Assembly (NCBI GenBank): GCA_029706075.1
Contig: JAINUG010000011.1
Location: 656,001-720,000, forward strand
Length of the DNA stretch: 64,000 nucleotides
Source of the DNA: Aldrovandia affinis
Lineage: Eukaryota; Chordata; Actinopteri; Notacanthiformes; Halosauridae
Direction: 5' to 3'
The notes below the pieces were generated by a model. The model did no database searches and was not told the DNA's origin. It was given only the letters and a program-made list of their open reading frames with translations. Positions within the stretch are counted from its first letter, which is position 1, and each line of letters starts with the position of its first letter. Below are positions 19,101 to 33,916 of the stretch, piece after piece. Both the position numbers and the translations under genes were made by a program.

Positions 19101-20455
19101 CCTGATGTTTCACCCTGAGGACCAGCCAATGCAGCTTTCACAGCTTCTCGCATCGCCTGGCAACAGGCGCTCACAACCTGGGGGTCGTGAACGAGTCCCA
19201 GGTGGTCTTCAGCAAAACGGAACAAATATTTCCCTTATAAGACTTGTTTGTTTGCATCTTCATATTTCGTTACATATTATGTATTTTGTACTTTCAGATA
19301 AAAGAAACCTGTTTACACATCCTTATTAATATTGTAATCATTAGACCTCATCAGAGAAATTAGACATGCTTCCATGTACAAGTGTGTTAAATGGCCACTG
19401 CATTGCAGTCTGTGGTGTGTGTTGGACAAGTGTTAAACATTTTACCAAGCCGGGGGATCCTCAGCCACAGGGTGGTCATTTCAGGGGGCCTTGAAATAAA
19501 ATTATTTGGGTACTCTTGAGAAGAACATCTTTCATGATGTCCCTGTGCAAAAACGAGCTAAAAACAGGTAGCTGGCCACAGCAAACTGTTTGCTCATTGA
19601 CTACCTAAATGAGATAAGAAAAATCTGGCCAAAAAAGGCCAGGCCTGGGGCTATCTTGAAGTGATTGTAACCCCCCAGTTAGACAGACGGTCGATTGGCT
19701 TGTTTAGCTTTGACATATTGGATACCTCGTCCAGCAGCCTCTGTTTGAGCTCCCGCTCGGTCTCCAGCTTCTGCTGCAGGCTGCGGGCGTTCATCTCCAG
19801 CATGGCGTGCTTCTTCTCCAGATCGCTCAGCTGAGGGGGAGACAACACATTCCAGACCGCTCAGCTAACTGCCTGTCCTTGCCGTGTTTGACTAACAGAC
19901 AGACAGACAGAAAGGCAAACTACTGACATAAAACGGACGGACCTACTGACACAAATACGGGCAGACAGACAAACAACAAACATGCAGTACATTCGTGCAG
20001 ACGGACTCACGGTGTCAGAGAGGCTCTCGGCCTTCAGTTTCTGCTCCTTCAGGGCCTGCTGCAGGGCCATGATCTCGGCCTTGTGCTCCTTCAGCGCCAG
20101 CTCCACCGCCTGGCGAGACTCGGTACTGCGCTGGTCCGCACGCAGCCTGCACAGAGAGAGTCGTTTAGATGCTGCCTGCGGTTACACAGGTGATCTGTCA
20201 AGAGACTAATATCTGCCAATGACATGTTTTGCTTTATCGTGCTATATAGTGGTCTGTTCCCATGGGTTCTGTGTGCTCTCTATGGCCTGGGAAGTTCATG
20301 AACAGATGTGTGCACTACACACTGAACCTTTCAATATCCCAGGCCCACCACTTGCTGGGTGGGGTGTGTGCATGCTTTTGTGTTGTCACTGGGTGACGTG
20401 GGTATGCGTGTGAATGTGTTTGTGTCGTGAGCCTGCACGTTTGTTACTGGGTGAA

Positions 20456-20486
<31 letters not shown>

Positions 20487-20549
20487 TATGCTTGTTGTTA
20501 ATGGGTGAAGTGTGTGTGTGTGTGTTTGTATGCTTGTTGTTAATGGGTG

Positions 20550-20586
<37 letters not shown>

Positions 20587-20654
20587 TATGCTTGTTGTTA
20601 ATGGGTGAAGTGTGTGGGTGTATGTGTGTGTTTGTATGCTTGTTGTTAATGGGT

Positions 20655-20734
<80 letters not shown>

Positions 20735-22470
20735 AGTGCGTTTGTGTGCACGTGCGCATAAGCGTTACCTGTTCTGCTTCTCATTGTCCAGCAGTCTCTG
20801 CATGTCGCGGGTCCTCCTCTCAGCCTGGCCCTTCTCATCCTCCAGGGTCCCCCGCCACGCCTCCCACTGCCGCTCCTTCTCCAGCAGCTCGTCATTCAGG
20901 GTCTCCAGCTCCAGGACCTGCTCCTCCAGCATGGTGCATGTCGTTTTCAGGGTCTCGATGTTCTGAGGAGAGGAGAAGGGAAGAGAGGAGAGGAGAGGGA
21001 CTCAACACAGTATTTGTCAGGAACTCTGGGCCTGCTAAGCTCATTTCAGTATCCTCCATTTCCTCCCTGTGAGCTCTCGACACAATAAATCTAACGTTAG
21101 ACAAAACTTCGATTATGGATTTATTGACATTTTATCACCAGTGATAAATTAAATGCATGGCAAATAAATAAGATGGGTGGGGTATGTGAGCATTGTTATC
21201 AAAAGTCAAATACAGAAAGAAGTGGAGAACTTTGAACTTCTAAATATTGATCTGAGTATGTGGTTCTGTATGAGGTAGAGCATGACAACGCTCTGGTTGT
21301 GGGCTCAATTCCCATTGGGACCGATATATTGAAAAATGCATGCATTCACTACTGTAAGTCGCCTTGGATAAAAGCGTCTGCTAAATGGCATACGTTATGT
21401 TATGTTGATCCCTGCCTGCCTGAAAGATCATAACAAAAAAACACTACTGAATTGCCGGTTCTGGAGTGCACACATTAAAAACTCCCAGCCACTGAAACGT
21501 TGTGACTAATATGAATTCCGATAACAGGCTGTTCTCGGTTCGCAGCTGCTTCCTCCTGGCTGTTCCACCGGGTTAGGCGGGAGATGGAGGGCATCAGACT
21601 AAAGCGCTGCCACTCCAGATATAGCCGTAGCACCCAGTGAAGTCCGTACACTCAGGGCTGAAGCGACCTTAGAGAGACGATGACACATCGCTCCCACCCT
21701 CGTCTGCATCGTGGCTCTCTGGTTTACATCCCCCCCCAACCCTGGTTATGCAACCGCGAGGACAGGGACCGCCCACACGTGCTCCACTCCCTCCCACAGG
21801 AACAGAGCGCATCGCACTGCCTCTGCCGAGAGCTGCACACCGCAACAACACATCTCAGTATCGCCGTCTCTTACTTTCACCCTCGATATCGCTCTCGACT
21901 TTTAATCTCAACATCTCTGTCTCTACTTTTAATCTCGACAACATATATCTATATGTGGTGTTCATCTTATATTCGCATTCCCATGATCATTTTTATACCC
22001 TACCCCCCCAATCTGGAATGTTCATTCGTATTCTAAGCCGTGCTCGCTGCGACATCCGCTGTCGATTCGGGAGAGCGTAGATAAGCATGAGCTCTCCTCC
22101 AAAACACGTGATGCCAGCCGCCGTTTCTTGTCACGCCGCAGTCTACAAGTTAAACATGCGCAGACAAGGTTTTGAAGGAAGACACTTGATGTGCAGCTTC
22201 ATAGTGGCAGAATGTGGCCTGACTGACCAGCAGGGGTTGTTGGTGTACAACGAGACACGGCCAACCCGGCCAACTGAATCCTTCCCTCCCTGGGCGACGC
22301 TACCACCAATTATTTCGCCCTGCGGGGCTGCCAGACATAATTAGCACTGGCACGGTCTGGATTCGATACCAGACTCAGACCGGGCTCATCCACACGCTAG
22401 AAACATATAAGGAAGGTGTAAGGATGAACCACACAGCAGCCCGGTCTTACTGAAGTGCTTACAATGTTTG

Positions 22471-22530
<60 letters not shown>

Positions 22531-25500
22531 TGTTTGCCTCACCAGTTTCTGGTTGTTGAGGCATGTGTGGTATTTGTCTTACCTGTTTATGTTTGTTGCG
22601 GTGTGTGGTATTTGTCTTACCTGTTTTGTTTGTACCTGTTTATGTTTGTTGAGGTGTGTGGTATTTGTCTTACCTGTTTATGTTTGTTGTGGTGTGTGGT
22701 ATTTGTCTTACCTGTTTTGTTTGTTGAGGTGTGTGGTGTTTGCCTTACCTGTTTGTTTGTTGAGGTGTGTGGTGTTTGCCTCACCTGCTTCTGTTTGTTG
22801 AGGTGTGTGTGGTGTTTGCCTCACCTGTTTCTGTTTGTTGCGGTGTGTGTGGTATTTGCCTCACCTGTTTGTTTGTTTGTTGCGGTGTGTGTGGTGTTTG
22901 CCTCACCTGCTTCTGGTTGTTGCGGTGTGTGTGGTGTTTGCCTCACCTGTTTGTTTGTTGAGGTGTGTGTGGTGTTTGCCTCACCTGCTTCTGGTTGTTG
23001 AGGTGTGTGTGGTGTTTGCCTCACCTGCTTCTGGTTGTTGAGGTGCATCTCGCGATCAGCCACCTCCCTGCGCAGCCTGTCCACATCCTGCCTGAGGTGC
23101 AGGCGGTCCTCGCTCTCGTCCGAGGCCTCATCCAGCTGCTTGGACAGGTAGAAGTTCTGCCGGTTCAGTTCAGCATTCTCCTGGGTCAGCTGGGTCAGCT
23201 GCTCCTCTAGATCAGTGATCACCTGCGGGCCAGGCAGTGGAGCGCGAGGTTAGACATGCGGATAACTTCTGCCCAAGTGCATTCTGGGCCTGGAATAATG
23301 ACCAGTGATTTTCTGTACAAGCACATACATCCCTGCTTCTGCTTGCCTCATCTCCTCAATAACAGCATTTTTCTGTATTCTGAACCATGCTGTGCTTATT
23401 TTGACTTGTTGTGACAGTTGTAACATACTTCCCACACCTTTCCCACCTCACAATAAAATTCACATTTGTCTCATTCTGGCTACCTTGATTAATAAAGAAA
23501 ATGTATTCATATTAATTAAAACAAGTCTTAATGGTCTGATTTGGATAGGTTAGAACCATAAATGTGCACAGTGTCCTTCTGAGGTCATGAGCTGTTATTT
23601 AGAGGAAGGGATAATGGGAAAGAATGATAAAAAAAGCTCCTCAAAAAGCATTCAACAAACACAAAGAAATTACACTTTCCAGTCAGCATACTGGCAACGT
23701 ATTGATTGCAACGATACTTGCTATGGCCACAAATGTATTTGCATACTTGTAAAGCAACGTCTATGCCTGTTTTTAAACAAAATCATAAACGCCCTGAATT
23801 TCCTTTTGCAGGTCCGATACTGCGGCATTCTATGATAATGCTCTTTTGAATGAAAAACATGAAGCTTCACAAACGCCAATTAACACTCAACAAATGTTCC
23901 GGAAACCTTTTCCATATTGTCCCGTAGTGAAGCGGATATCGAGCTCAGTCAAGAGAGAAACAGAAATATTAAATAGTTATTCATCTGCTTCCACAGGCAA
24001 ATGACTTCCTCTTGCATTTGAACTGCAGCACATCCTTGCGTCGCATTAAATATTCACTCTTCGCTCATGGCTCTTAATCATCTCATCTCCATCTTAACCA
24101 CAGAAGCCATTTTGTCTATAGAACAGATACCACTAGACAGTGTAATGCCGCTTGGACCCCAGCTTCCTTCCGAGACATTCCGTGTTTTAGCTGTCTCTGC
24201 AGCCGCAGAAGAGCCGTTCCGGACCAAAGGTTCGCTAACAAGACAAGTGTTCTGCCTAGTGTAATAAAAACACTGCATGCAAATTAAGATCGTCCTACTC
24301 TTAACTTTCAGCAAAAGGATTCCGCAAGAGTTAAAGGCACAGAAATTTCTGAAATGGAAATATGTTGCTGGAACTGAAGTGTCATTGATTTAAAACCCTT
24401 GCCAGAGCGTTCCTGGAAAACGTACCCTTGAGCAAGGTACTTAACTAGAATTGCCTCGGTAAATACCCAACACTGTTAGTCACCCTGCATAAAGACATCA
24501 TGCACACAAACATTAGAGAGTCCCAGCCAACCCGGTTATGCTGACGTCCGAGTTCTCCGAGTGAGCGTGAAACGTGGTCCTACGCCACGGTTTGGGGGGG
24601 ATGATCAGTGAGAGTCACAGAGGGCATGCTTAGTCAGGGAGCGGTTGCAAAGTGAGCCAGAGAGCAGGAAGTGCAGAGCGCAACCAGGTGCCGGCCCAGG
24701 GGTGATCCGCCGAGCCGTTCCACTCTGCAGACCTCCCTCCAGAGCATTTCCTGCGCTAGAGCGGTTTTAACAGCCCCGTGTTTACGCACTCTTCGCTTCT
24801 CTTGGAGAAAACCTGCTAAAGCCAACCCCCTTCATATCATTCCCCATGACAACGGGCCCGCACAAGAGCCTCTGCGATGCTGAGAGCCAAGCAGAGCCCT
24901 GTGAGCCATCGGCCCATGTTCACTGCACCAAAGGGGAGCTGCTGCATTGTGCTGGATTTGGGAGGGCAGTGAAGTGATGGAGGTGTTTATCTTCTGCGCG
25001 GTTATAAGCCATCCTCTCAATAAAGCTCCCTGAGGGCGTGGGTCCTGATCCGGATGCCACGGGCTCTCTCGGGTCAGCACTGAGCTGTCCATTTGTCCTC
25101 CATCTCGATCGCTCGCTTGTACTGTACTGCACCGCACTCACACACAGCACACTTCTCACAGCAGCACAACTGGAGAGCAGACAATGATCTCTTTTCAGCA
25201 GCGGTGTACTGAACTGCCGGTGGACATAACATTTGGACAGTAGCTGGAATTTAGACAGTAAAACTGACCCAGGCTGGTTACAGGAGAGTGGAGCTGCACT
25301 GGCGCTAACAAATAACCTTTTTTGCTGGGGTTGCCAGATATGGAAGTACACAGAACCCCAAAAACATAGGAAAAATAAAGGAAAAAAATTCCTTGCGAGA
25401 ATGACACGGCACAATGACTACAAAAGGCTGAACGTACAAGACGGGAGATAAAGGGGAGGGTAAAATGCTGACAAGCGGCTCAGTCTGTTCATTTTCTGAG

Positions 25501-32800: not shown

Positions 32801-33916
32801 CCTCCCTTAGGCTGTCCTCCAGCTCCTAGAGCAACAAACACGGTCATCAGACCCCTCTCACCCCCAACACCACCATCAGACCCCTCCACCTCTCACCCCC
32901 AACACCACCATCAGACCCCTCCACCTCTCACCCCCAACACCACCATCAGACCCCTCCACCTCTCACCCCCAACACCACCATCAGACCCCTCCACCTCTCA
33001 CCCCCAACACCAACATCAGACCCCTCCACCTCTCACCCCCAACACCACCATCAGACCCCTCCACCTCTCACCCCCAACACCACCATCAGACCCCTCCACC
33101 CTCTCACCCCCAACACCACCATCAGACCCCTCCACCTCTCACCCCCAACACCACCATCAGACCCCTCCACCTCTCACCCCCAACACCACCATCAGACCCC
33201 TCCACCTCTCACCCCCAACACCACCATCAGACCCCTCCACCTCTCCCCCAACACCACCATCAGACCCCTCCACCTCTCAGCCCCAACACCATCAGACCCC
33301 TCTCACCCCCAACACCAACACCAGGCCCTCTCAAGAAGTAAAACAAATAAAAGAATTGTAAAAATTAATATATAATATAGGCAGGCAAGCTATCCATGCT
33401 CGCAATCTGTCCCTTTTTGGAGCGGAGACAGGTTGATGGTGAGAGAGACTTGCTTTGGAGAGCCGCATGCCTGTGACCGGCTTGGAAGATATTCCCGTAC
33501 ATGCTGGGGACTGTGCAGGTGAGAGCGGGTGCGTGCGTGCGTGCGTGCGTGCGACAATGTGTGCGTGTTGTACGAGTGTGTGCGGCTGTGCTCTCCGCAA
33601 AACCCCAGAGAGAGGAAGCAGGGGAGGGGGCGCTAATCTGGGAAGGGGCGGCCTGATCCACCATCTCTTACCATGATCTTATCTGCCATCTGCTGTATCT
33701 GTTGGGATTTGGTCTGAATATCATCTTTAAGCTTGTTCTCCCGCCGTTCCACCATTTCAAGCCTCTTCACTTGGTTCTCCAGGGTCTTCCTGCCATCCTG
33801 CCGAAACGCAGATGATACACGGATACAGTAACGCACAGAGAACCGGTCCCACGGAAACTCAATGGAATAGATGACTAATACTGAACGGATACGAACATAC
33901 GGCAAAATGATTCCAC

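Follow-up and report, generated by a model that had tools for sequence, protein, structure and literature searches.

The minus strand of the window, by which we mean the whole 64,000-nucleotide stretch of Aldrovandia affinis DNA under analysis, carries part of the citron kinase gene (cit), from the coiled coil to the CNH domain. A tblastn search with human citron gave 18 ordered matches, and the CNH domain was found as a Pfam match within the window; the single-ORF pieces carrying C1 and PH had no match in Pfam. Exon w15 encodes a coiled-coil segment ending in HLNNQKQ and is 62.5% identical to the human sequence over a 72-residue alignment, with which the w15/w16 junction and the identity of the gene are also consistent. 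Searched alone against Pfam and the PDB, w15 gave no specific match. The intron between w15 and w16 is 2062 nt long, and the features that concern us are the following:

23025..23222, minus strand: cit exon w15, 66 codons, starting and ending in phase 0 (translation and splice sites)
23023..23024, minus strand: the exon's own GT donor, CAG/GTGAGG (sequence)
22535..23045, minus strand: minisatellite of 14 units, the first being the true exon edge, each unit comprising an exon end and an intron start
22945..22946, minus strand: donor at +78, the sole extra donor both open and in frame (translation)
22821..22823, minus strand: TGA stop closing the read-through frame (translation)
22542..22563, minus strand: last unit, its exon-like portion plus the first intron base, CTG/GTGAGG (unit comparison)
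22472..22529, minus strand: (CA)29 tract adjoining the array at its intronic end (TRF and sequence)
20769..20962, minus strand: next exon, w16, starting NIETLKTTC, with its acceptor CAG at 20965-20963

TRF places the array at 22634-23045 (period 40, 10.6 copies), with overlapping rows from 22523. Behind the real donor stand 13 donor-like sites, 12 of them CAG/GT and the last CTG/GT, at offsets of +40, 78, 118, 160, 200, 240, 276, 313, 351, 389, 404, 442 and 482 nt. A sequence-only reading of this DNA had described a minisatellite seeded on the w15 exon edge, and both the unit structure and an exact copy across the junction bear this out, as do the distances it gave from 40 to 276 bp (40, 78, 118, 160, 200, 240 and 276), all of which we found. 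Its details need some adjustment: the array of about 13 copies is real and has 13 extra donor-like sites, but counts 14 units once the real edge is included; the unit length of 36-42 bp holds for 12 of 13 spacings, the other step being 15 bp; and the real donor is CAG/GTGAGG, but 23025 is the last base of the exon, with the GT at 23024-23023. Each unit does span exon end and intron start, but since the first copy matches the w15 exon end exactly across 21 exonic and 30 intronic bases, the split is about 21 + 19 rather than 19 coding and 21 intronic bases.

The window contains 12 instances of the unit core, CAGGTRAGRCAAAYACC, the real edge counted, and none of 100 shuffles contains any. Proximal units mostly read CAG/GTGAGG with AAACACC, and distal units mostly CAG/GTAAGA with AAATACC. 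The last unit is probably a remnant of the founder, judging from its identity of 90% to the true edge unit as against 78% to its neighbour, and the (CA)29 tract is a probable slippage partner of the array. The locus is present once in the genome assembly. Two further minisatellites lie in the cit introns of the window: one of 48-bp units with a long (CA)n, at 20382-20748, begins soon after the w16 donor without including the exon and is a possible CA-nucleated counterpart of the w15 array; the other, in a different intron (32854-33323), has 13.5 copies of a 35-bp unit.

Donor strength, folding and reading frames

Using a position matrix and the U1 5' end, we scored each donor and its duplex with U1. 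The claim that the true donor is followed by about a dozen near-equal ones was upheld, with 11 of the 13 extra donors scoring at least as high as the real one (10.94-11.69 bits vs 10.94); the remaining two reach 4.57 and 8.84 bits. The U1 duplexes of the 11 best-scoring extra donors lie between -11.0 and -11.6 kcal/mol, compared with -11.6 kcal/mol for the real donor. Of the 14 gene-strand sites with at least 10.9 bits in the 64-kb window, 12 fall in the array, the real donor included. With so many extra donors scoring at least as well as the real one, the sequence does not guarantee dominance of the first donor.

Predicted accessibility has a median of 0.001 at 12 array donors, compared with 0.006 at 120 other AGGTR sites, 32.5% of which do not exceed 0.002. 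Taken as a whole, the array folds better than its shuffles, both as RNA (z -4.4) and, for the opposite strand, as DNA (z -5.3); five 65-nt pieces of it have weak or no folding excess (z 0.15 to -2.13). Burial of donors by RNA structure was considered as a selector and rejected: the real w15 donor is buried as well, so that folding singles out no donor. Between 22542 and 23024 of the window a small hairpin (GGTG..CACC or GGTA..TACC) can form over the unit donor. In the 12 units left after exclusion of the 15-bp fragment u10 and the atypical unit u11, the hairpin's pair at donor position +3 is G-C in seven, A-T in three, G-T in one and A-C in one; counting G-T, position +3 thus agrees with its partner in 11 of them. 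Because the units are related to one another, this covariation may represent only one or two events.

The consequences of using an extra donor follow from frame arithmetic. The reading frame runs open from w15 to a TGA at 22823-22821, in agreement with the stop at about 22821 that had been proposed. Four extra donors (+78, +240, +276 and +351) would leave the frame of w16 intact, and only +78 stands before the TGA, which confirms it as the single open and in-frame donor among those preceding the stop. Donors +40, +118, +160 and +200 shift the frame into stops within w16, and all donors after +200 would include the TGA; 12 of the 13 extra donors are thus out of frame or behind a stop.

The insert from +78 had been expected to add 26 residues to the coiled coil. 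Its length is indeed 26 residues, three of them prolines, and 26 leaves a remainder of 5 on division by seven. An AlphaFold2 model of w15 plus read-through, built from a single sequence (mean pLDDT 68.5), contains a single helix over residues 2-67 that stops at the edge of the 66-residue exon, and predicts neither helix nor strand in the read-through, where block pLDDT is 41-55. Because it carries three prolines, is not a multiple of seven and is predicted to be disordered, the insert would interrupt the coiled coil as a flexible break rather than lengthen it.

Exon-edge copies elsewhere in the genome

We searched the window's own assembly (G000, 1.22 Gb) for related events. A second cit gene, a paralogue, lies on contig C169; its w15 shares 88% of nucleotides and 61 of 66 residues with that of the window, and the two differ at 9 of 23 fourfold sites. 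The paralogous w15 ends in CAG/GTGAAT, its intron is a mere 110 nt long, and a second copy of the edge, CGG/GTGAGT, follows 47 nt downstream with the stronger U1 duplex (-12.6 vs -8.4 for the first). This copy starts at CACC, 21 nt before the donor, the same left breakpoint as in the window array, but bears the paralogue's own intron start, with an intron-side score reached by none of 5000 shuffles. Two histories would account for this: separate duplications of the w15 edge in the two genes, or one old duplication that each gene has since homogenised. Whole-genome BLAST with the array gave seven matches: the window, the paralogue and five weak ones. Four of the weak loci (L003, L004, L006 and L007) were set aside as CA/GT-rich or unrelated repeats lacking CAGGTRAG. 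The viral contigs contained no relative of exon w15 and no exact array unit.

To gauge how often exon edges are copied, we looked for a junction-straddling copy within 600 nt of 28 donors in each cit gene. Low-complexity edges were dropped, some automatically placed donors may be misplaced, and the score threshold of 40 was set after a first pass in which several more donors stood slightly above their 20 shuffles. With this threshold, an edge copy follows 1 of 27 scorable donors in the window gene (w15) and 5 of 27 in the paralogue (w15 and the four listed here, in loci L008-L011):

G000 C169:2931608: edge of xB, by eye a single copy
G000 C169:2920649: edge of xJ, by eye an array with about six further copies
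G000 C169:about 2904241: edge of w28, by eye a long array
G000 C169:2902439: edge of w29, by eye a single copy

Copies are more frequent at donor edges (6/54) than in deep intron (0 in the window and 6 in the paralogue, of 436; p 0.0008) or in exon interiors of the two genes (0/53; p 0.014). The differences from acceptor edges (0 and 2, of 55; p 0.13) and from intron 120-700 nt after donors (2 and 24, of 455; p 0.11, a control that includes arrays seeded at donors) are not significant. The paralogue contributes most of the hits, at donors as well as at control positions, and is thus more repeat-rich throughout. In myosin-head genes, 19 of 20 exon ends had a candidate donor; none of the 17 scorable donors reached the threshold, nor did any of 72 matched intron positions, and the nearest was L080 (score 33, offset 41). 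The power of this set is low because only about 11 of the 17 donors are convincing (at least 4 bits). With it added, the donors stand at 6/71 (p 0.003 against the deep intron of the cit genes).

Ladders of three donors (CAGGTRAGN{20,50} x3) gave 2207+2032 matches genome-wide, and the reversed pattern 161+107. The anagrams CAGTGRAG and AGGCTRAG gave 469+709 (reversed 200+137) and 208+191 (reversed 34+10), so that CAGGTRAG ladders are 3.6 to 10.6 fold commoner than the two anagrams. Such matches overlap within arrays; among the matches listed, we counted 17 arrays by eye, cit included, and examined the sequence before the first donor in the 16 others (L043-L058, in contig order). Of the 20 upstream ORFs with 22 or more residues, 18 entered the homology scan; L051, L052 and L054 had no such ORF. 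Four of the 16 ladders (5 of 17 with cit) start at exon ends of unrelated genes, the first donor lying at the end of a homology-supported reading frame. Two of them have only three CAGGTRAG-type donors each: one at a Peptidase_M41 exon end (3.2e-26), whose best downstream copy takes 4 exonic bases, and one at a DNase gamma exon end (5.1e-18), whose best copy takes 13. The ladder at an eag-like K channel exon end (L053, G000 C80:786609-788393; 1.6e-7, with PAS_9 at 1.1e-5, one bit below cut-off) has 40 donors in 2.3 kb and a best downstream copy with 49 coding bases; that at a tenascin/teneurin-type EGF exon (L058, G000 C136:1173165 onward) has 41 donors in 2.3 kb and a best copy with 11 exonic bases.

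As for the other sampled ladders, L057 may follow a first coding exon and has no match in Pfam, and L049 gave a single match below cut-off (E 0.005). At L046 (G000 C14:1056525 onward) a donor-like ladder runs antisense to a bromodomain exon, upstream in the orientation of that gene. One of 16 control ladders begins at an exon end, again at a donor: L072 (G000 C191:2873992 onward), an array found by a control pattern, with the donor CAG/GTCAGT. Its exon, putatively kinesin KIF21-like, had no hit in Pfam or the PDB. The difference between 4/16 and 1/16 is not significant (p 0.17), and the control search was the less complete, as 10 of 24 flank ORFs were scanned against 18 of 20.

The view that exon-edge duplication on this scale is rare fits poorly with edge copies in the paralogue and in four unrelated genes, two of which have arrays of about 40 donors. 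Because it recurs in these genes, exon-edge copying looks like a recurring route of repeat birth and not a one-off switch.

Origin of the array and its alternatives

Single donor VNTRs are already known from human genes, and the cit array shares their form in that its tandem units bear donors and the first unit is the exon's own. The IFI6 minisatellite (6-16/G1P3) reportedly has a unit of about 12 bp. It is said to supply multiple splice donors, in which the cit array resembles it, and two of its downstream units are reported to be used as donors in known transcripts (Turri et al. 1995, as cited in PMC4526556). The intron 18 VNTR of human ABCA7 likewise begins at the exon's own donor, that of exon 18; retention of one unit, through the second unit's donor, occurs at a low level (2 ± 1%), shifts the frame and is independent of VNTR length, and skipping of exon 19 increases with length (PMC5954066). 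The 25-bp ABCA7 unit starts at the GT itself, whereas that of cit takes about 21 exonic bases, and the ABCA7 array is polymorphic with measured RNA, whereas the cit array is known from the sequence of one assembly. In UBC and VCX3A, AGGT in tandem repeats can serve as both 5' and 3' site (PMC10809524); the cit units share the AGGT and the idea of repeats tolerated because they are spliced out, but in UBC/VCX3A each unit is exonic or intronic in its entirety and in frame, and the cit units have no acceptor-like tract. Intron gain through tandem duplication of AGGT segments, as outlined in PMC4974935, resembles cit in the AGGT-bearing duplication, except that in cit an existing intron acquires extra donors and no new intron arises. 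In the part of the open-licence literature that was searched we found no junction-straddling unit recurring both at one and the same edge in a pair of paralogues and at exon ends of unrelated genes within a single genome.

Copying across the w15 edge is certain: the unit structure, the sequence identity and the breakpoint all show an origin by tandem duplication. We consider it likely that the array is a slippage-born minisatellite, seeded on the w15 edge beside (CA)n and normally spliced out, with rare and mostly frameshifting use of the extra donors. The duplication straddles the exon-intron junction. Its first slip probably exploited short homology between the exonic CACC at position -21 and the (CA)n some 14 nt inside the intron, and the array may then have grown by later slippage or unequal exchange. 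If the first donor is used, as we assume, it would still end the normal exon, and the later copies would be intronic, removed and tolerated; splicing would thus mask the duplication from the protein and allow the array to grow. We expect some competition among the donors, though at a low level. By analogy with ABCA7, a small share of transcripts may use the next donor or donors; transcripts from most extra donors would carry a frameshift or stop and be degraded, and +78 alone would yield protein, with a flexible insert. Events of this type have struck other donors of the Aldrovandia affinis genome.

It is unlikely that the array is instead a functional splicing ladder, in which competing donors and copy number set the level of the +78 isoform or an NMD-coupled output of cit. 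CA-rich stretches are bound by hnRNP L, and the units are rich in stretches of this type (ACACAC occurs 17 times in 495 nt of array); the high scores of 11 of 13 extra donors and the open +78 frame also speak for such a ladder. Against it, the donor block shows 8 changes across 12 units, within the range of 4-17 for other 9-column blocks; as the donor columns thus have no excess conservation, there is no sign of selection on them, and selection for array donors is not indicated. Furthermore, the +78 insert would break the coil, 12 of 13 extra donors are unproductive by frame or stop, and unit retention in ABCA7 is independent of length (PMC5954066).

That the assembly collapsed or expanded the repeat is very improbable: an array of 0.5 kb next to a dinucleotide tract invites such an error, and the locus, being single-copy in the assembly, offers no second allele for comparison, but the units are ordered and individually diverged and the paralogue has its own two-copy version. 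We give least credence to a dual-specific AG/GT array from which parts are spliced out as in polyubiquitin UBC. Tandem-repeat AGGT can act as both kinds of site (PMC10809524), and 12 of 13 extra sites are CAG/GT and so contain AGGT; however, the sequence before the unit AG is 24-41% pyrimidine and 0-12% T, compared with 100% and 71% pyrimidine at the true acceptors of w16 and w15, and steps of 40 nt are generally short for introns.

Beyond the slippage-born array at w15, we put forward as a hypothesis, based on a small sample and on pattern counts, that donors seed repeats genome-wide. We put at somewhat less than even the chance that minisatellites are born time and again at the splice donors of this genome, with perhaps hundreds of edge ladders sharing one process, slippage straddling the junction near short repeats, and persisting because splicing conceals them; the ladders would provide a standing stock of shifted exon ends and a route to exon lengthening. 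If donors do recurrently seed minisatellites across a vertebrate genome, redundant splice sites, noisy splicing and polymorphic repeats would have a general source there, and both short-read assemblies and gene models at exon ends would be affected.
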